From Muribaculaceae bacterium (lineage in GTDB: Bacteria; Bacteroidota; Bacteroidia; Bacteroidales; Muribaculaceae): DNA of 64,000 nt. Positions 1 through 16,439 of this stretch are shown one piece after another. Both the position numbers and the translations under genes were made by a program. Every line of letters starts with the position of its first letter. Position 1 is the stretch's first letter. Below the pieces are notes generated by a model that was not told where the DNA came from, did not search any database, and saw nothing but the letters and a program-made list of their open reading frames with translations. The stretch lies in NCBI GenBank assembly GCA_017405965.1, contig JAFQZK010000035.1:118303-182302 (forward strand), in the 5' to 3' direction.

Positions 1-1
1 C

Positions 2-871
2 GCCGAGGCCGGTTACAACATGAAGCCCACCAACGTGAACAACGTCGAGACCCTCGCCAATGTGCCCATCATCCTGACCAAGGGCGCTGACTGGTTCGCC
101 TCGATCGGTACCGAGAAGAGCAAGGGTACCAAGGTGTTCGCTCTGGCTGGTAAGATCAATAACGTGGGCCTTATCGAGGTTCCCATGGGTACCACCCTGC
201 GCGAGATCATCTACGACATCGGTGGTGGCGTGAAGAACGGTAAGGAGTTCAAGGCTGTGCAGACTGGTGGCCCCTCGGGCGGCTGCTTGACGCAGAAGCA
301 CCTCGACACTCCCATCGACTATGAGCACCTCGCTGCTTCGGGCTCGATGATGGGCTCTGGCGGTATGATCGTCATGGACGAGGACGACTGTATGGTCAGC
401 GTGGCCAAGTTCTACCTCGAGTTCACCTGCGATGAGAGCTGCGGTAAGTGCACCCCGTGCCGCATCGGCAACAAGCGCATGCTGGAGATCCTCACCCGCA
501 TCACCGAGGGCAAGGGCACCATGGAAGACCTTGACCGTCTGAAAGAGCTGGGCGAGATTATCAAGGATACCGCACTGTGCGGTCTGGGTCAGACCTCTCC
601 CAATCCTGTGTTATCGACTATCAACAACTTCTGGGACGAATATGTGGAGCACGTTAAACAGCACACTTGCCGTGCTAAGCAGTGCAAGGCCCTCGTGACC
701 TACAGCATTGAAGCCTCCAAGTGTAAGGGTTGCGGTGCTTGCGCCCGCAAGTGCCCCGCCAACGCCATTATGGGCGACATTCGTAAGCCTCACATTATTA
801 ACCCCTTCGAGTGCATCCGCTGCGGTATGTGTAAGTCTAACTGCCGCTTCGACGCCATCTCGGTTTATTAA
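2..871 (+). CDS. hydB: NuoF-like (HydB) subunit of trimeric [FeFe] hydrogenase, 5' end missing
   Basis: The reading frame is open from base 2, so the gene starts upstream of the window; 289 residues of the C-terminal half are visible. The product is the NADH/flavin subunit of a multimeric [FeFe] hydrogenase. The visible part begins with the NuoF signature [10 protein letters not shown], followed by an SLBB-type region, then [10 protein letters not shown] (about residues 147-156) with a further Cys in ALCGLGQ near 194, which together bind a [4Fe-4S] cluster. The C-terminus carries a two-cluster ferredoxin domain ([11 protein letters not shown] and [11 protein letters not shown]), an extension found in HydB/HndC and absent from ordinary NuoF. 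The NADH- and FMN-binding part must lie upstream and cannot be checked. hydA follows after 14 bases, so the two are probably one operon. An HndC or HoxF-like name would be equally acceptable; the family is certain. Confidence 0.93.
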
Positions 872-885
872 ATTTCGATAGCATC

Positions 886-2655
886 ATGGAAGAAAAGAAT
901 ATGATCACTCTGACGATTGATAAACACGAGGTTACTGTTCCTGCAGGGACCATGCTGCTCGATGCCGCCAAGACCGTCGGCATCAGCATTCCCACCCTGT
1001 GCCACATCGACCTGGAGGGTACTTGTGTACAGAACATGCCTGCCTCGTGCCGCATTTGTGTTGTGGAGATCGAGGGCCGTCGCAACCTGGCTCCCGCCTG
1101 TGCAACCCGCGTGACTCCGGGTATGGTGGTTCACACCAACAGCGCCCGCGTGATCCGCGCCCGCAAGACCGTTGCCGAGCTCATGCTCAGCGACCATCCC
1201 AACGATTGCTTGACCTGCCCCAAGTGCAGTGACTGCGAGCTGCAGCGCCTGGTTATGCGCTTCAACATCCGTCAAATGCCGTACAACGGTGGTGAGCAGA
1301 GCGAGCGCAAGCAGGAGCTCACTCCCGCTATCTCGCGCAACATGGAGAAGTGCGTTTATTGCCGCCGTTGCGAGAGCGTCTGCAACAACGTGCAGTCGGT
1401 AGGCGTTTTGAGCGCTATCCGCCGTGGTTTCAACACCACCATCGCTCCCACGTTTGACAAGATGTTCACCGACACCAACTGTACCTATTGCGGTCAGTGT
1501 GTCGCTGTATGTCCCACCGGCGCCCTTACCGAGCACGATTACACCAATCAGCTCATGGACGACCTCACCAACCCCGATAAGGTGGTTATCGCTCAGCCCG
1601 CTCCCGCCGTGCGTTTCGCTCTGGGCGAGGAATTCGGCATGCCCGCTGGTACCATCGTTACCGGCAAGATGGCCACCGCATTGCGCGACCTGGGCTTTGA
1701 CTACGCATTCGACACCGACTTCGCTGCCGACCTCACCATCATGGAGGAGGGCACCGAGATCCTGCAACGCCTCAACAAGTTCCTTGCTGGCGATAAGGAT
1801 GTGAAGTTGCCGATCATGACTTCGTGCTGCCCCGCTTGGGTTAACTTCTATGAGCACGAGTTCCCCGATCTGCTCGACTATCCCTCGACCGCCAAGTCGC
1901 CCGCCCAGATGTTCGGTGCTGTCGCCAAGACCTACTGGGCCGAGAAGATGGGTATCCCCCGCGAGAAGCTCGTGGTTGTTTCAATCATGCCTTGCTTGGC
2001 CAAGAAGTATGAGGCCGGCCGTGATGAGTTCAAGGTGAATGGCAATCCCGACGTGGATTACAGCATCTCAACCCGTGAGCTTGGTCGCCTGATCAAGCGT
2101 GCCAACATCGACTTCGCTAACCTGCCCGAGAGTGACTTCGACTCGCCCCTCGGTGAATCGACAGGTGCTGGTGCCATCTTCGGTATCACGGGTGGTGTGA
2201 TGGAGGCTGCATTGCGTACCGTCTATGAGGTGCACACCGGCAAGACCCTGCCACACCTCGAGTTCAACGACGTGCGCGGCTTTGAGGGCATCAAGGAAGC
2301 TACCATCGACCTCAACGGCTTTGAGCTGAAGGTCTGCGTGGCTCACACCCTGAGCAACGCCCGCAAGGTGATGAACGCCCTGCGTGCCGGCAAGCTCAAC
2401 TACCACGTGGTTGAGGTGATGGCATGTCCCGGTGGTTGCATCGGCGGTGCCGGTCAGCCCTACCACCACGGCAACATCGAGATTCTCAAGGCACGTGCCG
2501 CTGCCGTTTATCGTGAAGACGAGGGCAAGGCATTGCGTAAGAGCCACCAGAACCCCGACATCCAGAAGCTGTACAAGGAATTCCTGGGTGAACCCTGTGG
2601 CGAGAAATCGCATCACCTGCTTCACACGCACTACTTTGATAAGAGCATTCATTAA
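886..2655 (+). CDS. hydA: NADH-dependent [FeFe] hydrogenase catalytic subunit HydA
   Basis: Catalytic subunit, 589 residues, that makes or oxidises H2 at the H-cluster in the cytoplasm. Domains in order: plant-type [2Fe-2S] ferredoxin (about 1-80), a His/Cys [4Fe-4S] site HPNDCLTCPKCSDC (about 104-117), a 2x[4Fe-4S] domain (CVYCRRCESVC near 156, CTYCGQCVAVC near 200), then the H-domain with L1 TSCCPAWV (C314, C315), L2 MPCLAKKYE (C370) and L3 CPGGCIGG (C514, C518), and a C-terminal small-subunit-like tail. The paired Cys in L1 includes the proton-transfer Cys of catalytic group A enzymes. L2 has Leu where MPCT is usual. With hydB before and hydC after it, this is the A-type trimer that couples NADH and ferredoxin to H2; bifurcation is inferred from the family, not visible. 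A second in-frame ATG at 901 is an alternative start. Confidence 0.96.
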   Translation: MEEKNMITLTIDKHEVTVPAGTMLLDAAKTVGISIPTLCHIDLEGTCVQNMPASCRICVVEIEGRRNLAPACATRVTPGMVVHTNSARVIRARKTVAELMLSDHPNDCLTCPKCSDCELQRLVMRFNIRQMPYNGGEQSERKQELTPAISRNMEKCVYCRRCESVCNNVQSVGVLSAIRRGFNTTIAPTFDKMFTDTNCTYCGQCVAVCPTGALTEHDYTNQLMDDLTNPDKVVIAQPAPAVRFALGEEFGMPAGTIVTGKMATALRDLGFDYAFDTDFAADLTIMEEGTEILQRLNKFLAGDKDVKLPIMTSCCPAWVNFYEHEFPDLLDYPSTAKSPAQMFGAVAKTYWAEKMGIPREKLVVVSIMPCLAKKYEAGRDEFKVNGNPDVDYSISTRELGRLIKRANIDFANLPESDFDSPLGESTGAGAIFGITGGVMEAALRTVYEVHTGKTLPHLEFNDVRGFEGIKEATIDLNGFELKVCVAHTLSNARKVMNALRAGKLNYHVVEVMACPGGCIGGAGQPYHHGNIEILKARAAAVYREDEGKALRKSHQNPDIQKLYKEFLGEPCGEKSHHLLHTHYFDKSIH

Positions 2656-2678: not shown

Positions 2679-3173
2679 ATGAAGAAGAAAGAAGAAATCA
2701 AACTGGCGTGTACCGTAGTTCAACAGGTTGAGGAAATCTGTGACAAGCACGGAAATAAGCCCGGTGAATTGATTAACGTGTTGCACGAGTGCCAGGCACT
2801 GCACGGCTATCTCCCCGAGGAGATGCAGCGCATCATTGCCCGCAAGTTGGGCGTGCCCGCATCCAAGGTTTACGGCGTGGTGACGTTCTACTCGTTCTTC
2901 ACCATGACCCCCAAGGGCAAGCACCCGATTTCGGTCTGCCTGGGTACCGCCTGCTACGTGCGTGGTTCCGAGCGCCTGCTCGAGGAAATCAAGCGCATCC
3001 TCAACATTGAGGTGGGTGAGACTACTCCCGATGGCAAGTTCTCGCTCGACTGCCTGCGTTGCGTGGGTGCCTGCGGTCTTGCTCCCGTTGTCATGATTGG
3101 TGAGCATGTTTATGGCCGTCTCGACGTCAAGGACATCCGTCAGATTCTCGAGACCACCGCAGCACAGGATTAA
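2679..3173 (+). CDS. hydC: NuoE-like (HydC) [2Fe-2S] subunit of the hydrogenase
   Basis: Thioredoxin-like [2Fe-2S] ferredoxin of 164 residues, the electron-transfer subunit that partners the NuoF-like subunit. The four cluster ligands are visible in the NuoE spacing: C87-x4-C92 (CLGTAC) and C128-x3-C132 (CVGAC). The N-terminal helical bundle typical of the family (EICDKHGNKPGELINVLHEC) is present and the length is normal. It lies 23 bases after hydA and is followed by a clear terminator, so hydB-hydA-hydC form one transcription unit. Start at ATG 2679 gives the expected N-terminus. The order flavin subunit, catalytic subunit, NuoE-like subunit is complete for an HydABC-type complex, so no further structural subunit is needed here. 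Confidence 0.94.
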   Translation: MKKKEEIKLACTVVQQVEEICDKHGNKPGELINVLHECQALHGYLPEEMQRIIARKLGVPASKVYGVVTFYSFFTMTPKGKHPISVCLGTACYVRGSERLLEEIKRILNIEVGETTPDGKFSLDCLRCVGACGLAPVVMIGEHVYGRLDVKDIRQILETTAAQD

Positions 3174-3368: not shown

Positions 3369-5036
3369 CTATTTCTTCTTCTTGATGATGTCCAGCAGGT
3401 AGAGGATGGGAGCGTTGTCATCAAAGTTGTAACGCTTGTATTCCTCATAGCTTGGCATCAGGTCGGGCGTGAACTGTTTGGCACGCGGGTCGTCGTCGGG
3501 GAAGCAAATCTGAATCAATGAGCAGATATCTCCAGTGAGACCGGTGCGAGGCAGATAGAACGACTGATTCGCCATGAAGGTGTTGGGCGCTTGACTGCTT
3601 GTTACTCCCGCAATTGTGGCCCCCATTTTCCACAGATGGTGAGAAAAGTGGAAGGCGGCACTGAACGTCAAGGGGTCAGTGACTACATATACGTGCTCGG
3701 GACTGTAGACGGGTTGGCCGTTTTGTGCGCGCAGTTTGTCCTTGATGCTGCACATGCTGCCATCGATGAAATTTTCACGCTTTTTTTCGATACTGATTTC
3801 CTGGTAGTTTACCTCTGAAAGGTCCAGATAGTCCCCATACTCAAGTTTGTATTCATTCGTTGCATTTATCTGTTCAAGAGAGGCTTTACTCATTGTCTTG
3901 GGAGTAAGCAGATAAAACCCTTTATCCTCTTGATAACACTCTTTCAAGTATCTGTCGCCATATAATTGATAAAGCAGTGGATAAACGATATTTGTGTTGC
4001 CTCCACCATTGCCACGCAGGTCGATGATCAGGTTCTTGCTGCTGTTTTGCTTCATCAACTGCAGCATCTTCTCGAATTCTTCACTCAACGATGGTATCAT
4101 CGCAATGGCAAAATCTTCATTCTCGGGAACAGGCATGCCTGCAATACTGTAGATGCCTTGAAGCATACCTGAACAGTCGTAACCATGTTCCTTGTCGTAT
4201 TCCAGAAGATCTCTTGCGATCATGTGTGCCACATGGAAGTACATCGTGTTGTTACCTTCGTCGGCAAAGCCATATTGGAGTAAACCGAGGAAATCATAGC
4301 TGAATTGTTTGGCAGGGAAGCTGCTTGGTCTTACCGATTGGGCCTGAAATTGCAATACCTGATTGAACGGGACAACGGGCAACGTAACCTCGGCTTTCTT
4401 CCCTTTAGGGGTCTTCAGTTGATAGGTGATAGTGGCATCGCCCAGGGTGGGAATCACTTTACGCAGGGCTTTGGGTTGTATGGCGTAATGTGCCAGATTC
4501 ATCATGCGTCCTATCTCGTTCTCGGCAATGAAGTGTTTTGCCATGTCGTTGGCCAAGTCGTTGACCGCCACATTCTCGATGGCGACAAGACGGCTGCCCA
4601 CCAGATCCTTGTACTCGTCGGGCAGGGCCTTGACAATAATTCCGTCGTTGATGGCCTCAAGGATGATGAGCGTTGCCGGATCAGTATACTGAATTGGGAA
4701 GTGGCCAGGAACATAAGGTCCATCGGGCATGGCGACGGTGTGCCCGTCCTTCAACGGAGCCAGGAATTCATTGATGCGATAAGCAAACTCCCTGACGTCA
4801 GTGACCTTGTCTTTGAGAAGCGCGTTGCGGGCATCACTTGCAGCCTTGCGGAAGTAGGGTTTGCCTCCATAACCACTGTAGGGGTCTGGATGCCGCTCTT
4901 CAAGGAGTTTGACAAAATATCTGAAGTCGGCGACGATGGAGTCGGTGGGCACTTGCGCCCACGTCTTGTTGCCAGCAAGCAACAATGTTAACAGGATGAG
5001 CAACGTTGCTCTGGTTAGGAAATGATTCTTTTTCAT
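3369..5036 (-). CDS. S41 family (C-terminal processing type) secreted peptidase
   Basis: Predicted exported serine protease of 555 residues. An N-terminal signal peptide is clear (basic MKKNHF, a Leu-rich core, cleavage after TWAQ). The S41 core follows: NLIIDLRGNGGGNT near residue 333 and the segment with the catalytic Ser, DPLTFSAAFHF, near residue 458. The start is set at ATG 5036, because the upstream alternative at 5045 is a TTG that only adds three residues before the signal peptide. The gene stands alone on the minus strand between the two hydrogenase loci and has no visible functional link to them. Substrate is unknown; Bacteroidota carry many S41 peptidases of this type that act on periplasmic or outer-membrane proteins. 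A PDZ domain is not obvious. Confidence 0.85.
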   Translation of the reverse strand: MKKNHFLTRATLLILLTLLLAGNKTWAQVPTDSIVADFRYFVKLLEERHPDPYSGYGGKPYFRKAASDARNALLKDKVTDVREFAYRINEFLAPLKDGHTVAMPDGPYVPGHFPIQYTDPATLIILEAINDGIIVKALPDEYKDLVGSRLVAIENVAVNDLANDMAKHFIAENEIGRMMNLAHYAIQPKALRKVIPTLGDATITYQLKTPKGKKAEVTLPVVPFNQVLQFQAQSVRPSSFPAKQFSYDFLGLLQYGFADEGNNTMYFHVAHMIARDLLEYDKEHGYDCSGMLQGIYSIAGMPVPENEDFAIAMIPSLSEEFEKMLQLMKQNSSKNLIIDLRGNGGGNTNIVYPLLYQLYGDRYLKECYQEDKGFYLLTPKTMSKASLEQINATNEYKLEYGDYLDLSEVNYQEISIEKKRENFIDGSMCSIKDKLRAQNGQPVYSPEHVYVVTDPLTFSAAFHFSHHLWKMGATIAGVTSSQAPNTFMANQSFYLPRTGLTGDICSLIQICFPDDDPRAKQFTPDLMPSYEEYKRYNFDDNAPILYLLDIIKKKK

Positions 5037-5446
5037 GTGATACAATATTTGATGTTATTGCCTTCTTGTTTGAGTTCAGTTTAAGTTCTAAGGTGTACAC
5101 AGGTCTTCATTGCAAAATTAATCAGAATATTTCATCTATTATCGGTTGTTGAGGGGTAAATGTAGATGAATACCCGCTTTTTCCCTGAAAGTGTCAAATA
5201 ATTGGACACTTTCAGGAAGAATGATTTCTCCATTCAGTCTATCGGGAAGACTTATTGTCTCAAGGTCGCACCTGGGATACTGAACGACATCGATGCTACA
5301 CGCATTCTCATTTTTAATTTCACAAATTCAATTATTCTTAATTCCTTTATTGTGGGATTGGAAGAAAAACTGTAATTTTGTAAGTGATATTGGATAGATA
5401 TCCACATCAGTCAAAAATCCTTAAATTATTAACCGATTAATTGTCA
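5037..5446. other. 410-base spacer between the S41 peptidase and the second hydrogenase
   Basis: AT-rich divergent spacer with no credible gene. It holds a hairpin at 5185-5215 (CTGAAAGTGTC / GACACTTTCAG, 9-base loop), of unknown role, and the promoter of the second hydrogenase at 5349-5380. The hairpin sits some 160 bases upstream of that promoter, where it could be an operator or a leftover terminator. Confidence 0.6.
5349..5380 (+). promoter_or_regulatory. Probable promoter of the second [FeFe] hydrogenase
   Basis: ATTG at 5349-5352, 20 bases, then TAATTTTG at 5373-5380, matching the Bacteroidota -33/-7 consensus. The predicted transcription start is near 5387, giving a leader of about 60 bases before ATG 5447. 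The gene therefore has its own promoter, separate from hydBAC. Confidence 0.65.
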
Positions 5447-7252
5447 ATGGATTCTCAACACAACGAAGCGCCAAACAATGCGAATGGCGAAATGCAATCA
5501 GACAATGCCTCCGAGGCATACGGCCTGATTGGTAACCAACATATACAGGTCCTGTGCTGCTGTGGTTCGTCATGCTATGAATCGGGCAGCTTGAAAATCA
5601 TTGACAATTTTATCCGTGTTATCGCAGCCTATGGTTTAGGCAGCCGTGTAGATGTCGTGGCAACAGGTTGCTTTGGCTTCTGTGCAAAGGGGCCCATCGT
5701 AAGGATCATGCCCGACAACACGACCTACGTCCAGGTTCATCCCGAGGATGTGGAGGAAATCGTCAAGACACACATCATAGAAGGACGTCTGCTCGAACGC
5801 CTGCAATATGTGGACTTTACGGCCCATCAGTTGATGGATGACTCCAAGCACTGGAGTTCCTATCCCAAGCAACTCTCGATGGATGCCATGTTGCATGACT
5901 ACATCTACGAGATTGGCGGCAAGAGGTTCTTGTCGGTGATGTCCTACAAGATTGATGCCGACAAGTGCAAGGGTTGTGGCGCCTGCAAGCGTGGATGCTC
6001 CAGCCATGCCATTGTGGGTGACCTGCGCCATCCCCATGTGGTCAATCCCTATAAATGCACATGCTGCGGTCATTGCACGACCAAGTGCAAGTTCGACGCC
6101 ATCCACGGCCCCGTGGGTGCACTCAGCGAGCGCAACTATGTCGAGGATCTGCTGGTTGATGTCGCTGACCCCGACAAGATAGTCGTGGCTCAAACAGCAC
6201 CGGCGGTACGGTATGCGCTGGGCGAGGAATTCGGCATGCCCCCCGGCAGCATCGTGACAGGCAAGATGATCACGGCCCTGCGCAAGGTGGGTGTGGACTA
6301 TGTGTTTGATACCGACTTCGGTGCCGACATCACCATTATGGAGGAGGCTGCCGAAATTGTTGATCGTCTGCGCAAATTCATCGCAGGGGACAAGACGGTG
6401 CGTATTCCTATCACTACCTCGTGCTGCCCGGCATGGGTCAACTTCTTTGAGAACGACTATCCCGACCTGAGGGAGTATCCCTCGACCTGCAAGTCACCCG
6501 CTCAGATGCTGGGAGCAGTGCTCAAGACCTTCTGGGCTCAGCGCATGGGTATCCCTCGCGATAAACTGGTTGTGGTCTCGATAATGCCATGCCTGTCCAA
6601 GAAATATGAATGTGCACGCGACGAGTTCATCACCGACGGCAACCCCGATGTGGACTACTCGGTCACTACTATCGAGCTGGCCGAACTGATTAAGCGCATG
6701 AACATAGACTTCGACTCCTTGCTGGACGGCGAGTTCGATTCTCCGCTGGGTGACTCCAGTGGTGCCGGAGCCATCTTCGGTACTACAGGCGGTGTCATGG
6801 AGGCCGTGTTGCGAACGGTGTATGAGGAATTCACCGGACAGGAACTGGCCTATGTCGAGTTTGAACAGGTGCGAGGCCTGGACGGTATCCATGAGGCTGT
6901 CATCGACCTCAACGGCTTTGAATTGAAGGTGTGCGTGGTCAATACGTTGGCCAACGCCCGCATCGTTATGGACAAGCTGCGTGCAGGTGAAATGGATTAT
7001 CATGTCATCGAGGTGATGGCATGTCCCGGTGGCTGCATCGGCGGAACGGGCCAACCTTACCACCATGGTGATATCGAGGTCATCAAAGCCCGCCAGCGCG
7101 CCATCTACAGCGAGGATGTGGGCAAGCGGTTGCGCAAGAGCCATGAGAATCCTGTCATTCAGCGTCTTTATCGCGAGTTCCTCGGCGAACCTCTTCATGG
7201 CAAGGCCCACGAAATTCTCCACACCAAGTACCGCGACAAGTCCATCCTTTGA
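5447..7252 (+). CDS. [FeFe] hydrogenase of fused architecture: thioredoxin-like Fd + 2x[4Fe-4S] + H-domain
   Basis: A second [FeFe] hydrogenase, 601 residues. The N-terminus (about 30-115) is the thioredoxin-like [2Fe-2S] domain seen at the start of HydB, with all ligands present (C38-x4-C43, C75-x3-C79). Next comes a 2x[4Fe-4S] domain (C174/177/180/184 and C204/207/210/214) that resembles the C-terminus of HydB, not the ferredoxin of HydA: CKGCGACKRGCSSHAIVGD here, [19 protein letters not shown] in hydB. The H-domain follows: L1 SCCPAWV (C326, C327), L2 MPCLSKKYE (C382), L3 CPGGC (526-530). The FMN/NADH module of HydB and the N-terminal [2Fe-2S] and His-Cys clusters of HydA are missing. Active-site residues are intact, so it should be catalytic; its electron partner is unknown. 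ATG 5447 is preferred to TTG 5441. Its H-domain is clearly a close paralogue of hydA. Confidence 0.92.
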   Translation: MDSQHNEAPNNANGEMQSDNASEAYGLIGNQHIQVLCCCGSSCYESGSLKIIDNFIRVIAAYGLGSRVDVVATGCFGFCAKGPIVRIMPDNTTYVQVHPEDVEEIVKTHIIEGRLLERLQYVDFTAHQLMDDSKHWSSYPKQLSMDAMLHDYIYEIGGKRFLSVMSYKIDADKCKGCGACKRGCSSHAIVGDLRHPHVVNPYKCTCCGHCTTKCKFDAIHGPVGALSERNYVEDLLVDVADPDKIVVAQTAPAVRYALGEEFGMPPGSIVTGKMITALRKVGVDYVFDTDFGADITIMEEAAEIVDRLRKFIAGDKTVRIPITTSCCPAWVNFFENDYPDLREYPSTCKSPAQMLGAVLKTFWAQRMGIPRDKLVVVSIMPCLSKKYECARDEFITDGNPDVDYSVTTIELAELIKRMNIDFDSLLDGEFDSPLGDSSGAGAIFGTTGGVMEAVLRTVYEEFTGQELAYVEFEQVRGLDGIHEAVIDLNGFELKVCVVNTLANARIVMDKLRAGEMDYHVIEVMACPGGCIGGTGQPYHHGDIEVIKARQRAIYSEDVGKRLRKSHENPVIQRLYREFLGEPLHGKAHEILHTKYRDKSIL

Positions 7253-7398: not shown

Positions 7399-8601
7399 TC
7401 AAGGCATGGACACCTTGCTCAGGATTCCTTTTAGATGGGCGATGGTGATGCCGTAGTTGGTCATCGGTGTGCCTTGCCGGCGGCACTGATCCACGCGTGA
7501 GAGCATGAACTTGCGGTTAAACATGCAGCCGCCGCAATGAATCACGAGGTCATAACTTGTTACATCTTCAGGGAAATCTTTCCCGGCCACAATGTCTACG
7601 GTCAGCCCTTGTCCCACGCGCTGTCGCAGCATGCGGGGAATCTTTTCGCGGCCGATGTCCTCGGCCAGCGGGGCATGAGTGCAGGCTTCGGCAATGAGCA
7701 CGCGCGATTGCTCGGTCATGCGGTCAATGGCCATAGCGCTCCTGACAAAGAAGCGGATGTCGCCCTTATGGGCTGCCATCAGCACCGAGAACGAGGTGAG
7801 CAGGCTTCCCTCAGGCTTTTTCTTTTCGACGATGTCAAACACCTGTGAGTCGGTGATGATCAATCGGGGCAGTTCTTTTAACGCTGCAAGGGTGCTGTCA
7901 ATGTCATCGGTAGTGCAACAGATGGCGATGCACCGTTTGTCCATCAGGTCGCGTAGGGTCTGTACCTGAGGCAGGATAAGGCGGCCTTTGGGGGCTTGCG
8001 GATCTTGCGGCATGACCAGCAGCACTGTGTCGCCGGGACGAGCAAGGTCGCCTGTGAGCGACTGTTTCTCGTTTTCGGGCATGAGTCCTGCCAGTGTCTT
8101 CCTCAGCAGGTCCAGTCCGGTGCCGTTGATGGCACTCACGGGAATGACATCGCAGCCCAGTCGCTTGGCCATGTCCTCAAGTAGGGTAGAGGGCACCTCT
8201 TCCAGCAGGTCCACCTTGTTCAATACAGCGACAAAGGGCACGTTGGCTTGCTTGAGCAACGTGGCCCATGTTACCTCGTCGTTGAGTGAACTGCCGTCGG
8301 TAACAAGGATAGCGAGATCAGTCTGCTTGATGACCTCACGGGTGCGCTCGGTGCGCAGGTCGCCCACCTTGCCGCAGTCGTCAAAGCCCGCCGTGTCGAT
8401 GAGCACACAAGGGCCTAACGGCAGTATCTCCATCGATTTCATCACCGGATCGGTCGTCGTGCCGGGCACATCGCTCACCAGGGCGGTCTGTTGTCCAGTG
8501 AGCGCGTTGATAAGCGACGACTTGCCCGCATTGCGTCGTCCGAACAGCGCAATGTGCAGCCTTTCACTCTGTGGAGTCCTGTTAAAATTGTTATCTACCA
8601 T
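7399..8601 (-). CDS. hydF: [FeFe] hydrogenase H-cluster maturation GTPase HydF
   Basis: HydF is the scaffold GTPase that assembles the 2Fe precursor and delivers it to apo-HydA. The 400 residues show a TrmE/Era-type GTPase domain (P loop GRRNAGKSS near 21-29, DVPGTTTDP, DTAGFDD, NKVDLL), a middle dimerisation domain, and a C-terminal cluster-binding domain. The cluster ligands are visible as C307-x-H309 and H355-C356-x2-C359, the family CxH...HCxxC pattern. Length is as expected. It lies downstream of hydG on the same strand and they are probably co-transcribed. The presence of HydF and HydG next to two hydrogenase genes suggests these maturases serve both enzymes. Start ATG 8601 is well placed. 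Confidence 0.95.
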   Translation of the reverse strand: MVDNNFNRTPQSERLHIALFGRRNAGKSSLINALTGQQTALVSDVPGTTTDPVMKSMEILPLGPCVLIDTAGFDDCGKVGDLRTERTREVIKQTDLAILVTDGSSLNDEVTWATLLKQANVPFVAVLNKVDLLEEVPSTLLEDMAKRLGCDVIPVSAINGTGLDLLRKTLAGLMPENEKQSLTGDLARPGDTVLLVMPQDPQAPKGRLILPQVQTLRDLMDKRCIAICCTTDDIDSTLAALKELPRLIITDSQVFDIVEKKKPEGSLLTSFSVLMAAHKGDIRFFVRSAMAIDRMTEQSRVLIAEACTHAPLAEDIGREKIPRMLRQRVGQGLTVDIVAGKDFPEDVTSYDLVIHCGGCMFNRKFMLSRVDQCRRQGTPMTNYGITIAHLKGILSKVSMP

Positions 8602-8703: not shown

Positions 8704-10119
8704 TTAGAAGTAGAAGTCGCGCTTGCCGGCAGCGATTTCGCCGATGTGCTGGGCAGCGATTTCGCGCACGCGTGCGTTCTTGATTTTGGCCAGTTCCTGT
8801 TCGATGAGGATGTTGCCCTTGGCTACGGTGTCCTCGCTGGCAAAGTCCATGAGGTATTCCTTGAGCGTCATCAGTGCATTGGGCGTGCAAATGTCGCCGA
8901 TCTTTCCGGCTTTGCACAGTTCCATGAAGCGGTCACCGGTGCGGCCCGAGCGGTAGCAGGCGGTGCAGAAGCTGGGCAGGTAACCGATCGACAACAACCA
9001 GTTGATGACCTCGTCGAGGGTGCGCGTGTCGCTCACGTCGAACTGGGCTGTCTCGTCGTGGCGCTCGACGGTGGTGTAGCCGCCCACGCTGGTGCGACTG
9101 CCGCCGCTGATCTGTGAAACGCCCAGGTCAAGTACCTTGGCGCGTACGCTCTGGCTCTCGCGGGTCGAAATGATCATGCCGGTATAGGGCACCGCCAGGC
9201 GGATGACTGCGATGATGCGGCAGAAGATGTCGTCGGGCAGCACGTCGGGGAACTCATCAAGGCTGATGTCCTCGGCGGGGCAGATGCGTGGCACGCTGAT
9301 GGTGTGCGGACCAACGCCGAATTTGGCCTCAAGGTGCTCGGCATGCATCAGCAGGCCCACGAAGTCGTAGCGGTAGGTCGTCAGACCGTAGAGCACGCCG
9401 ATGCCCACATCGTCACAGCCGCCCATCTGGGCGCGGTCCATAGCCTCGGTGTGGTAGCAGTAGTTGCTCTTGGGACCTGTGGGATGCAACGCCTCGTAGT
9501 TCTTGCGGTTATAGGTCTCCTGGAACAGGATATAGGTGCCGATGCCGGCGGCCTTGAGTTTCTCGTAGGCCTCGACCTCGGTAGCGGCGATGTTCACGTT
9601 CAGGCGGCGGATTTCACCGTTGCCCACCTTAGTATTGTAGATGGTGTGGATCGACTCCAGAATGTACTCCAGCGGATTCATCACGGGGTGCTCACCGGCC
9701 TCCAGGGCGATGCGCTTGTGGCCCATCTTGACCAGCGCCTCGACTTCGGCACGGATTTCGTCCTGAGACAGTTTCTTGCGCGGGATGGTTTTATTCTTGG
9801 CATGGTAGGGACAATAGACGCACCCGTTGATGCAATAGTTCGACAGGTAAAGCGGTGCGAACATCACGATGCGGTTGCCATAGAAACGGCGTTTCACGTC
9901 CTTGGCCAGTTGCTCGTAGCGCTCGATCAGGTCGGGCTGGTCGCAGTCGAGCAGCACCGCTGCCTCGCGGTGTGTCAGGCCTTTACACAAGGCTGCCTTG
10001 TTGATGATTTCCTCAATCAGAGCACGATTGCTCTTGTTCTTCTCAGCGTATGATAGTGTTTCCAGTATCTCACTGTCGTCGATGAATTCATCGGCATGGT
10101 TTGATTTGACGTTATACAT
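8704..10119 (-). CDS. hydG: [FeFe] hydrogenase maturase HydG (radical SAM tyrosine lyase)
   Basis: HydG splits tyrosine to give the CO and cyanide ligands of the H-cluster. In 471 residues it shows the radical SAM motif C96-x3-C100-x2-C103 (CINGCVYC) and the HydG-specific C-terminal site C385-x2-C388-x22-C411, which binds the auxiliary cluster carrying the dangler iron. That second motif separates HydG from ThiH. It is the first gene of a hydG-hydF unit on the minus strand. The third maturase, HydE, is not in the window and must be elsewhere if the hydrogenases are active. A CAAAGATA (TATCTTTG on the minus strand) at 10156-10163 is a likely -7 element for this unit. Confidence 0.96.
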   Translation of the reverse strand: MYNVKSNHADEFIDDSEILETLSYAEKNKSNRALIEEIINKAALCKGLTHREAAVLLDCDQPDLIERYEQLAKDVKRRFYGNRIVMFAPLYLSNYCINGCVYCPYHAKNKTIPRKKLSQDEIRAEVEALVKMGHKRIALEAGEHPVMNPLEYILESIHTIYNTKVGNGEIRRLNVNIAATEVEAYEKLKAAGIGTYILFQETYNRKNYEALHPTGPKSNYCYHTEAMDRAQMGGCDDVGIGVLYGLTTYRYDFVGLLMHAEHLEAKFGVGPHTISVPRICPAEDISLDEFPDVLPDDIFCRIIAVIRLAVPYTGMIISTRESQSVRAKVLDLGVSQISGGSRTSVGGYTTVERHDETAQFDVSDTRTLDEVINWLLSIGYLPSFCTACYRSGRTGDRFMELCKAGKIGDICTPNALMTLKEYLMDFASEDTVAKGNILIEQELAKIKNARVREIAAQHIGEIAAGKRDFYF

Positions 10120-14415: not shown

Positions 14416-15471
14416 TTAGTATTTCAAGACCTTGATTTCGCCGCTGAGAGCACCAAAGGCGTTCTCGGCCAGAGCCGACATCTCGTCCTCACCGGGATAA
14501 ACGTGAACGGGAGCCATCCAGTCGATGCGCTTCTTGAGCTCCTCAACCATATAGTTCCAGTAAGCGATACCGCCGGTGATGATGATGGCATCGATCTTGC
14601 CGCACAGCACAGCACCCTTCTCGGCGATGGCCTTGGCAATATGATAGATCATGGCGTTGATCACGAGCTTGGCGTGCTCGTCACCGTTGTTCATCATCTT
14701 CTCGGCCTCGATCATGTCGGTCGTGCCCAGGTGTGAGAAAACGCCACCCTTACCGGAGATCATCTTCAGAATCTCGTCTTTGGTGTATTCACCGCTGAAG
14801 CACAGGTTGACCAGCGCTTTAGCGGGCAGGCTGCCGGCACGCTCGGGTGAGAACGGACCTTCACCATCCAGGGCGTTGTTCACGTCAACGGCGCGGCCAT
14901 GGTCGTGGGCTGCTACCGAGATACCGCCACCCAGGTGGGCAACGATAAGGTTCAGGTCCTCGTAACGCTTGCCGTTCTCCCTGGCAAAGCGACGTGCGAT
15001 GGCGCGCTGGTTCAAGGCGTGCCAAATGCTCTCGCGCTTGAACATGGCCAAACCGCACACGCGGGCATAGTCGTTCAGCTCGTCGGTCACAACGGGGTCG
15101 GCGATATAGCAGGGGCATCCTAGGCCCTTGGCAATCTCGCGGGCGATGACGCAACCCAGGTCACAGGCGTGCTGATGCTCGCTGGCATAGGTAGCCTGAA
15201 TCATATTATCGTCGACGGCATACACACCACCAGGAAGCGGTTTCGTCAAACTGCCGCGAGCGACTACGGCATCAAACTCAACGGGAATTCCGGCTTTCTC
15301 AAGCTCGTTGAGAATCATTTGGCGACGGAAGTCGAACTGGTCGGTAATCTTGGCAAACGGAGCCAGCTCCTCGGCGGCATGACGGATGACTTTAATCAGG
15401 CGGGGTTCGCCGTCCTCAACGACTGCCATCTTGGTGGAAGTGGAACCCGGATTGATGACTAATACTTTCAT
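14416..15471 (-). CDS. buk: Butyrate kinase
   Basis: Acetokinase-family kinase of 351 residues that converts butyryl phosphate and ADP to butyrate and ATP. The start MKVLVINPGSTSTKMAV carries the phosphate-binding NPGSTSTK motif, and RGSLTKPLPGGVYAV, HLGGGISVAAHDHG and IITGGIAYW are typical of Buk as opposed to acetate kinase, which is longer. It lies 56 bases downstream of ptb on the same strand and ends at the bidirectional terminator. Together they form the phosphate butyryltransferase-butyrate kinase route, giving one ATP by substrate-level phosphorylation. Enzymes of this family also take isobutyrate, isovalerate and related acids, so branched-chain acid production is an alternative role. 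Confidence 0.94.
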   Translation of the reverse strand: MKVLVINPGSTSTKMAVVEDGEPRLIKVIRHAAEELAPFAKITDQFDFRRQMILNELEKAGIPVEFDAVVARGSLTKPLPGGVYAVDDNMIQATYASEHQHACDLGCVIAREIAKGLGCPCYIADPVVTDELNDYARVCGLAMFKRESIWHALNQRAIARRFARENGKRYEDLNLIVAHLGGGISVAAHDHGRAVDVNNALDGEGPFSPERAGSLPAKALVNLCFSGEYTKDEILKMISGKGGVFSHLGTTDMIEAEKMMNNGDEHAKLVINAMIYHIAKAIAEKGAVLCGKIDAIIITGGIAYWNYMVEELKKRIDWMAPVHVYPGEDEMSALAENAFGALSGEIKVLKY

Positions 15472-15527
15472 TGTTTATAATGTTTAATAGACAGAGTTTA
15501 ATGATATGTGTAATTGGTAATTGATTT

Positions 15528-16439
15528 TTACTCGGCGGCCATCGTGGCTACAGCCAGGCTGTAGAACTTGGACTGGGCGCTGTCGGCACGCGAGGGAACC
15601 ACGGCGGGGCACTTGGCACCCAGCAGCAGACCGGCGGTGCTGGCACCGGCAAACAGCGTGATGGCTTTGTAGAATACGTTACCGGCCTCGATGTCTGGCA
15701 TGATGAGCACGTCGCTGTCGCCCATCAGGGGAGAGGTCAGGCCCTTAGCCTCCATGGCGTGCATGCTGCAAGCGCACTTGGCATCCAGCGGACCGTCAAC
15801 AATGCACTTGCCCAGTTCGCCGTTCTTGGCCATCTCGATGATCACGGGGTAGTCTTCGGTAAAGGGGAAATGCTTGCCGTTCACCTTCTCGGTGCAGTGG
15901 ATAAGGGCAACCTTAGGCTCCTCGATGCCGAAGTTGCGGGCCACGTTGGACATATACTTCACCATCTCCACGCGTTGTGCCTGGTTGGGGTAGGGAATCA
16001 CAGCGGCATCGGTGAAAATGAGGAATTTGTGGTAGCTGGGAATCGAAGCTACGGCGGCATGGGTCAGCACGTTGCCCTTGGGCAGAATGCCGGTTTCCTT
16101 GTTCAGGACGGCGCGCAGCAGGTTGTCGGTATTGATCAGACCTTTCATCAGCACGTCGGCCTTGTCCTCGCGCACCAGGGCTACGGCCTTGGCAGCGGCG
16201 TCATCGGCATCGCTGGCATCGACAAAACTCATGTTTGCGGCAAAGGGCTTCAAGGCCTCGTTGGCTTTGAGCTTCTCTTCACAACCCACAAAGATGGCTT
16301 CGATAAATCCGGCTTCAAGTGCTTGGGCACAAGCGGCGGGAGTCTTCTCGTCGGCAGCCCAAACTACAGCAACGCGTTTCTTCACATTGTTCTCTTTGAG
16401 ATGAGCAAGTAACTCATCAAAATTCTTAATGGTATTCAT
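15528..16439 (-). CDS. ptb: Phosphate butyryltransferase
   Basis: Phosphotransacylase-family enzyme of 303 residues that exchanges CoA of butyryl-CoA for phosphate. Visible family segments include VLMKGLINTDNLLRAVL, LTHAAVASIP, FTDAAVIPYPN and DVLIMPDIEAGNVFYKA. Length fits Ptb and not the longer Pta. It is the first gene of the ptb-buk pair; the promoter is at 16478-16509. The crotonyl-CoA-forming enzymes that would complete a butyrate pathway are not in the window, so whether butyryl-CoA or a branched acyl-CoA from amino-acid breakdown is the true substrate is open. Confidence 0.93.
   Translation of the reverse strand: MNTIKNFDELLAHLKENNVKKRVAVVWAADEKTPAACAQALEAGFIEAIFVGCEEKLKANEALKPFAANMSFVDASDADDAAAKAVALVREDKADVLMKGLINTDNLLRAVLNKETGILPKGNVLTHAAVASIPSYHKFLIFTDAAVIPYPNQAQRVEMVKYMSNVARNFGIEEPKVALIHCTEKVNGKHFPFTEDYPVIIEMAKNGELGKCIVDGPLDAKCACSMHAMEAKGLTSPLMGDSDVLIMPDIEAGNVFYKAITLFAGASTAGLLLGAKCPAVVPSRADSAQSKFYSLAVATMAAE

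Follow-up and report, generated by a model that had tools for sequence, protein, structure and literature searches.

Group A3 bifurcating [FeFe] hydrogenases (HydABC, or BfuABC) carry two [4Fe-4S] clusters, B3 and B4, in the C-terminal domain of HydB. Among the candidate ferredoxin sites of HydABC, this domain is the leading one (PMC9499530), and a second structure paper, in the passages that we draw on, names B3 and B4 as prime candidates by their likeness to NdhI, with ferredoxin binding not resolved there (PMC8880783). How HydABC stops ferredoxin-driven H2 production without NADH is an open point in the field, for which the parts of the structure papers considered here offer proposals, not demonstrations (PMC9499530; PMC8880783). 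In one such proposal, the distance of the HydB C-terminal domain from the H-cluster would prevent H2 from being made from ferredoxin without NADH, in a mechanism that its authors term highly speculative (PMC9499530).

Here we describe a single-chain [FeFe] hydrogenase, referred to as the chimaera or fusion, encoded in a 64,000-nucleotide stretch of Muribaculaceae DNA (the window, meaning the whole stretch that was analysed). Like HydABC, it consists of parts that all derive from HydB or HydA, and its gene usually lies in the same cluster; it differs from HydABC in being one chain without the FMN/NADH module, the hinge cysteines or the N-terminal clusters of HydA. It shares with HydB the N-terminal TrxL domain and the C-terminal 2x[4Fe-4S] domain, and differs from HydB in that the central flavin/NADH part is removed and an H-domain is added.

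Other described hydrogenases resemble the chimaera in part. Ferredoxin hydrogenases of the M2 type (Megasphaera, Desulfovibrio type) also place two [4Fe-4S] clusters before the H-domain and probably catalyse the same reaction, but the chimaera differs from them in its descent, in its HydB-type cluster domain, in a join 7 residues longer than that of HydA, and in its extra TrxL domain. Published modular schemes comprise classes M1–M5 together with other variants, of which some contain TRX and NuoF modules (PMC4284687; PMC11376134). TRX modules are therefore already known among [FeFe] hydrogenases; as far as the legends of these papers go, none of the TRX/NuoF classes of Meyer and Calusinska is presented as a HydA H-domain carrying HydB ends (PMC4284687; PMC11376134). 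The Nyctotherus-type hydrogenase is likewise a single-chain H-domain fusion, but its partners are two complex-I-like modules, and it is described in the passages considered as reoxidising NADH (PMC2216082), whereas the chimaera has no NADH module. NADH-dependent HydAB is another non-bifurcating relative built from the same kit (PMC7311640) and, going by the relevant passages, the mirror image of the chimaera, since it works with NADH and without B3/B4 (PMC7311640; PMC9499530). We found no named class combining TrxL, 2x[4Fe-4S] and H-domain from HydB and HydA in the literature searched, outside which lie the definitions of Meyer 2007 and Calusinska 2010.

Domain anatomy of the chimaeric hydrogenase

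The features of the locus are listed in Table 1; an alternative in-frame start of the chimaera gene, TTG at 5441, is possible.

Table 1. Features of the hydrogenase locus, in window coordinates.
Feature	Position	Strand	Details
hydB, 3' part	1..871	+	gene begins before the window, at about G000:C31:117266
hydA of the bifurcating trimer, H-domain paralogue	886..2655	+	Pfam, NCBIfam, H-domain tree
hydC	2679..3173	+	Pfam, NCBIfam
S41 peptidase gene	3369-5045	-	between hydC and the fusion gene
Bacteroidetes-type promoter	5349..5380	+	ATTG, 20 nt, TAATTTTG
chimaeric [FeFe] hydrogenase gene	5447..7252	+	601 aa plus stop; ATG 5447, stop 7250-7252
TrxL [2Fe-2S] domain, HydB N-terminal type	5510..5806	+	residues 22-120; C38, C43, C75, C79
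HydB linker to the FYRKQ point, then deletion join	5807..5920	+	residues 121-158; flavin/NADH part and hinge cysteines missing
2x[4Fe-4S] domain, HydB C-terminal type	5921..6112	+	residues 159-222; C174, C177, C180, C184; C204, C207, C210, C214
7-residue surplus at the HydB/HydA join	6089..6109	+	residues 215-221; constant in 56/56 copies
complete H-domain, HydA type	6113..7249	+	residues 223-601; C326, C327, C382, C526, C530
hydF maturase	7399..8601	-	Pfam, NCBIfam
hydG maturase	8704..10119	-	NCBIfam

Pfam resolves the predicted protein into TrxL [2Fe-2S], 4Fe-4S, Fe_hyd_lg_C and Fe_hyd_SSU, in that order. The 2Fe-2S_thioredx match (residues 29–108) scores 23.3 bits, slightly below the Pfam cut-off of 24.8; it is followed by Fer4 at 167–189, Fe_hyd_lg_C at 244–533 (2e-91) and Fe_hyd_SSU at 544–598. 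The protein passes the model for group A [FeFe] hydrogenases (TIGR02512; 462.6 bits against a curated cut-off of 405.95) and falls below that for the NADH-dependent HydA of A3 trimers (NF040763; 576 bits against a cut-off of 765), for which the window's HydA scores 880. We observed no match at E 0.001 to Fer2_4 or NADH-G, which represent the N-terminal [2Fe-2S] and NuoG-like clusters of HydA and are both present in the window's HydA. Likewise, SLBB and NADH_4Fe-4S, which represent the FMN/NADH-binding module, have no Pfam match in the chimaera, and its alignment to HydB skips the module.

Comparison with the HydB and HydA of the same genome indicates where each part comes from. Residues 15–143 align with HydB 24–154, that is, TrxL and the linker as far as FYRKQ at the start of the flavin part; residues 159–219 align without gaps with HydB 572–632 (of 635); and from about residue 222 the protein corresponds to HydA from about residue 210, with 69% identity to HydA over residues 201–600. 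TrxL shares 57% identity with HydB over 91 aa and 28% with HydC over 83 aa; the 2x[4Fe-4S] domain shares 54% with HydB over 57 aa and 31% with HydA over 48 aa. These alignments and the Pfam matches bear out the description in an earlier note on this DNA, made from the sequence alone, of a HydB TrxL end and a HydB-type 2x[4Fe-4S] domain joined to a complete H-domain. The TrxL cysteines named there, at 38, 43, 75 and 79, are also the right ones: 75 and 79 are found in 56/56 copies, and 38 and 43 in all 55 copies that cover them.

The joins are equally regular. The distance from the last cluster cysteine to the APAVR motif is 36 residues in 56/56 fusions, compared with 29 in HydA (43/43 in the genus, 20/20 in the order and 19/21 elsewhere, the remaining two having 28 and 27), suggesting that the fusions retain the turns of both HydB and HydA in tandem. 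In HydB, H563, C569 and C574 are invariant in 70/70 sequences and, by their position and a published Zn site of three Cys and one His in the passages considered (PMC9499530), are likely to be the hinge ligands. In the fusions, no column between residues 79 and 174 has cysteine in half or more of the copies, and the alignment of copies has no invariant histidine within the region 143–173. By these comparisons, the predicted protein has lost the HydB hinge cysteines as well as the FMN/NADH module and the HydA N-terminal clusters; the omission of the last two had been proposed in the earlier note, and Pfam and the alignment agree with it. C348 was considered as a new fusion-specific ligand and dropped, because 21/21 non-Bacteroidales HydA rows also have cysteine there.

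Phylogeny of the parts

All trees were quick, with SH-aLRT support only, and used 25 of the 56 fusions, 28 genus HydA and 28 genus HydB sequences. Partial frames (HydA below 560 aa, HydB below 590, fusions below 520 or 560) were excluded from the trees and column counts. In the H-domain tree (82 rows, 25 of them fusions), the fusions and genus HydA group together at 100, separate from the 20 HydA that represent other Bacteroidales families, consistent with the earlier remark that this domain is a close relative of the neighbouring hydA. The fusions form one clade (99), and two genus HydA rows lie beside them at 87 (not starred). Residues 1–235, on which the earlier note had staked its reading, group with HydB domains. 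In the TrxL tree (95 rows, with a long-branch warning), the fusions again form one clade (99), within the genus HydB and two near relatives (99). In the 2x[4Fe-4S] tree, a weak tree of 85 columns, they group with genus HydB at 95, and an AU test did not reject grouping of this domain with 20 HydB of other Bacteroidales (p 0.371).

The pieces all point to the hydB-hydA of one genus and so fit a local duplication with two deletions, and the trees show what the local deletion-fusion of a duplicated hydBA, put forward in the earlier note, predicts. Judged from the alignments and trees, deletions in a hydBA copy in the genus lineage evidently removed the central part of hydB and the third of hydA at its 5' end, leaving the order HydB 1–154, HydB C-terminal tail, HydA from about residue 210.

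The sole M2-like row of the H-domain tree is a short [FeFe] hydrogenase of 458 codons from Romboutsia lituseburensis (L143:614-1744, minus strand), which, of the proteins of the window, matches the fusion best, at 43% identity.

Distribution and genomic setting

Among the matches listed, we found the full-length chimaera in 30 of 40 genomes of the window's genus, HydA and HydB matches without the fusion in five, and neither in five; a HydA match accompanied the chimaera in 29 of the 30 fusion-bearing genomes. In a separate draw, with types pooled, 46/61 genus genomes had an H-domain match of some kind. When the hydB-hydA-hydC locus of the five fusion-less genomes was read, we found no fusion frame in it, one of the contigs ending about 3.2 kb past hydC. 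Five of 40 genus genomes therefore keep hydB, hydA and hydC without the fusion, suggesting that the chimaera is dispensable.

A scan of species genomes with two peptide patterns, covering 80 of 125 relatives and liable to miss divergent fusions, found the fusion in at least 55 of 79 loci among the matches listed. The titles of the listed loci name uncultured Bacteroidales, given as Prevotellaceae, Muribaculaceae, Porphyromonadaceae or Bacteroidales alone, and among the matches listed 7/55 fusion-locus titles name a source (roe deer, red deer, sheep, yak or goat). Each of the 24 listed non-genus loci has a HydB frame (six were read). Beyond the genus, the family survey (297 genomes) gave no match beginning near the N-terminus, and the earliest non-genus match of the order survey (393 genomes) starts at residue 145, in both cases among the matches listed. 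We also used an N-terminal profile at a cut-off of E 1e-28, at which more divergent fusions would score below the threshold. It matched 2/345 genomes of the phylum, one being that of the window, through both fusion and HydB, and the other giving a HydB-type match. In the phylum of Tepidibacter mesophilus it matched 5/398 genomes, with six matches that cover residues 5–126 only; the four that were read are HydB-like, that of G685 is a HydB frame, and L180 was left out of the reading. In the samples searched (family, order and two phyla), the architecture was thus not seen outside one genus.

Alignment of the copies revealed two clades of fusion, I and II. Clade II fusions are 62–67% identical to that of the window, compared with 77–89% for HydA, HydB and HydC of the same loci; for one pair, the window and the clade II copy L100, the TrxL sequences are 49% identical, those of the FeS domain 64% and those of the H-domain 71%. 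HydF differs between the clades as much as the fusion does (58–62% identity), and HydG is 78–81% identical. The motif before the H-cluster cysteine (window residue 525) reads MACPGG in clade I and MSCPGG in clade II.

An upstream hydC on the same strand was found in 45/56 loci, at 70–621 bp in 37 and at more than 2 kb in eight, including the window; the other 11 have no detected upstream hydC, some of them being contig edges. An S41 peptidase match between hydC and the fusion occurs in the window and L065 only, of the 56 loci compared. At window positions 14416-16439, on the minus strand, two adjacent frames resemble, by eye, butyrate/acetate kinase and phosphate acyltransferase, and look like a putative fermentation end route near the hydrogenases.

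A promoter scan with the E. coli consensus gave 3 sites against 3.5 expected and was replaced by a scan with the Bacteroidetes consensus, which we take to have the form given in Table 1. With one mismatch allowed in the first box and two loci with less than 300 nt upstream excluded, this motif stands upstream of the fusion in 41/54 loci, compared with 4% of mononucleotide shuffles. It is present in 31/32 clade I loci and 10/22 clade II loci, and its distance to the start is mostly uniform in clade I and not in clade II. The earlier claim that the gene has its own promoter consequently holds for clade I, to which the window belongs.

Conservation and selection

In the H-cluster region the five cysteines are invariant in 56/56 copies, as are the eight [4Fe-4S] ligand cysteines, the latter giving the cluster count of M2 enzymes, two [4Fe-4S] plus the H-domain. 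Also invariant in 56/56 copies are the residues equivalent to CpI E279, E282, R286, S319, M353, K358 and M497, in a numbering and a proton-path assignment that we take to be correct. Whole-gene dN/dS is 0.03–0.09 for 10 of 12 pairs, with synonymous sites saturated in the remaining two and dS above 1.5 in three more; the chimaera is under purifying selection. The fusion is not a chance product, because it is found in 55 of 79 listed scan loci and because dN/dS is this low in 10 of the 12 pairs. In 11/11 pairs for which both were computed, the fusion is more diverged at synonymous sites than hydA.

Sensory [FeFe] hydrogenases (groups C and D) are described, in the passages considered, as having lost the proton-path cysteine and as carrying a C-terminal FeS or PAS domain (PMC11376134; PMC6984386). 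The chimaera shows neither of these features, and its residues and phylogeny argue for the earlier prediction of an active enzyme, not an H2 sensor.

Proposed function and alternatives

We consider it probable, though far from certain, that the product of the hydBA deletion-fusion now acts as a soluble, ferredoxin-only, H2-evolving hydrogenase, a short circuit of the bifurcating enzyme. Reduced ferredoxin would dock on the HydB-type 2x[4Fe-4S] domain (B3/B4 of the bifurcating enzyme), which in the predicted chain stands right before the H-cluster, and electrons would pass from ferredoxin through the [4Fe-4S] pair to the H-cluster without FMN, NADH or a moving hinge, resulting in uncoupled H2 release. 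The TrxL [2Fe-2S] domain would probably be a docking or side-entry module. The window's genome (96% complete) has PFOR and two H-domains over the Pfam cut-off, those of HydA and the chimaera, and nothing over the cut-off for rnfC. Across the genus, rnfC was found in 0/61 genomes at E 1e-20 (31 of them at least 90% complete; many incomplete), and the control, Bacteroides ihuae, has a match; besides the hydrogenases, the search for ferredoxin-oxidising enzymes covered Rnf. Where PFOR is present and Rnf was not detected, the chimaera may vent ferredoxin electrons that HydABC cannot take because it needs ferredoxin and NADH together. Between the donors proposed earlier, ferredoxin and the HydC/HydB subunits, we favour ferredoxin. 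The identity of the domains can be read directly from the comparisons above; ferredoxin binding, electron distance and turnover are inferred. Against the ferredoxin-only reading, the 7-residue surplus could displace the [4Fe-4S] domain relative to the H-cluster, the B3/B4 ferredoxin site of HydABC is itself a candidate one, the TrxL cysteines, for which a simple ferredoxin hydrogenase would have no need, are kept, and the chimaera appears dispensable (absent from 5/40 genus genomes with the trimer genes, among the matches listed).

The retained TrxL domain might instead dock like the N-terminal domain of HydB, against HydC, making the chimaera an extra subunit of HydABC whose H-domain is fed by the complex as a further, differently regulated outlet. 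The chimaera retains TrxL with all four of its cysteines, the gene lies 70–621 bp past hydC in 37/56 loci, a HydA match occurs in 29/30 fusion-bearing genomes (among the matches listed), and the HydB N-terminal domain is reported, in the passages considered, to stabilise the C-terminal domain of HydC (PMC8880783). Nevertheless, the chimaera is without the HydA N-terminal clusters, which are the link to HydB; it diverges more between clades (62–67%) than HydA, HydB and HydC do (77–89%); and its TrxL part is the most divergent of all (49%, one pair). We therefore regard an extra subunit as unlikely. [FeFe] hydrogenases are reversible, and the chimaera could mainly take up H2, reducing ferredoxin at high H2 pressure. 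This would be a long shot, given that PFOR is already able to supply reduced ferredoxin and that no Rnf was found to use it.

Second [FeFe] proteins near bifurcating clusters are often sensory, according to the part of the source considered (PMC3561251), which would make the chimaera a sensor of H2 or redox state for the hyd locus. This role is very hard to reconcile with the proton-path cysteine and ligands kept in 56/56 copies, the grouping of the H-domain with A3-type HydA, and the absence of a PAS or kinase domain in Pfam at E 0.001. An ordinary M2 ferredoxin hydrogenase with an acquired TrxL, unrelated to the local hydBA, would have the observed cluster count (two [4Fe-4S] plus the H-cluster). 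Moreover, the FeS domain is short, its grouping with 20 HydB of the order was not rejected (AU p 0.371), and the H-domain tree had just one M2-like row. In that tree, however, the H-domain groups with genus HydA at 100, the FeS domain is 54% identical to HydB, and the constant 7-residue surplus is as expected from a HydB end joined to HydA; an M2 origin is largely contradicted and scarcely credible.

Returning to the ferredoxin-only hydrogenase, we suggest, with slightly more doubt than belief, that removal of the flavin gate and the hinge has wired the ferredoxin-docking bridge straight to the H-cluster, creating a one-donor valve beside its parent, perhaps on the same complex via TrxL. In the chimaera this domain sits on an H-domain of the same type as in the bifurcating enzyme, and the gate is missing, which would provide a natural test of how the two-donor enzyme works. 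If it makes H2 from ferredoxin alone, B3/B4 would be supported as the ferredoxin site and the gate would be located; if it makes none, the B3/B4 model would be in trouble. If the ferredoxin-only reading is true, this Bacteroidales genus would have a second route of H2 release.

Other fused frames

In L065, the closest relative of the window (fusion protein 98% identical), hydB and hydA are merged into a single open frame of 1226 codons (L065:1621-5298), with about 11 bases near the end of hydB missing relative to the window. This merged frame is either real or an assembly error; as it stands, it shows that hydB and hydA can fuse readily. At another locus (L108:5550-7730), hydA and hydC lie in one open frame of 727 codons.
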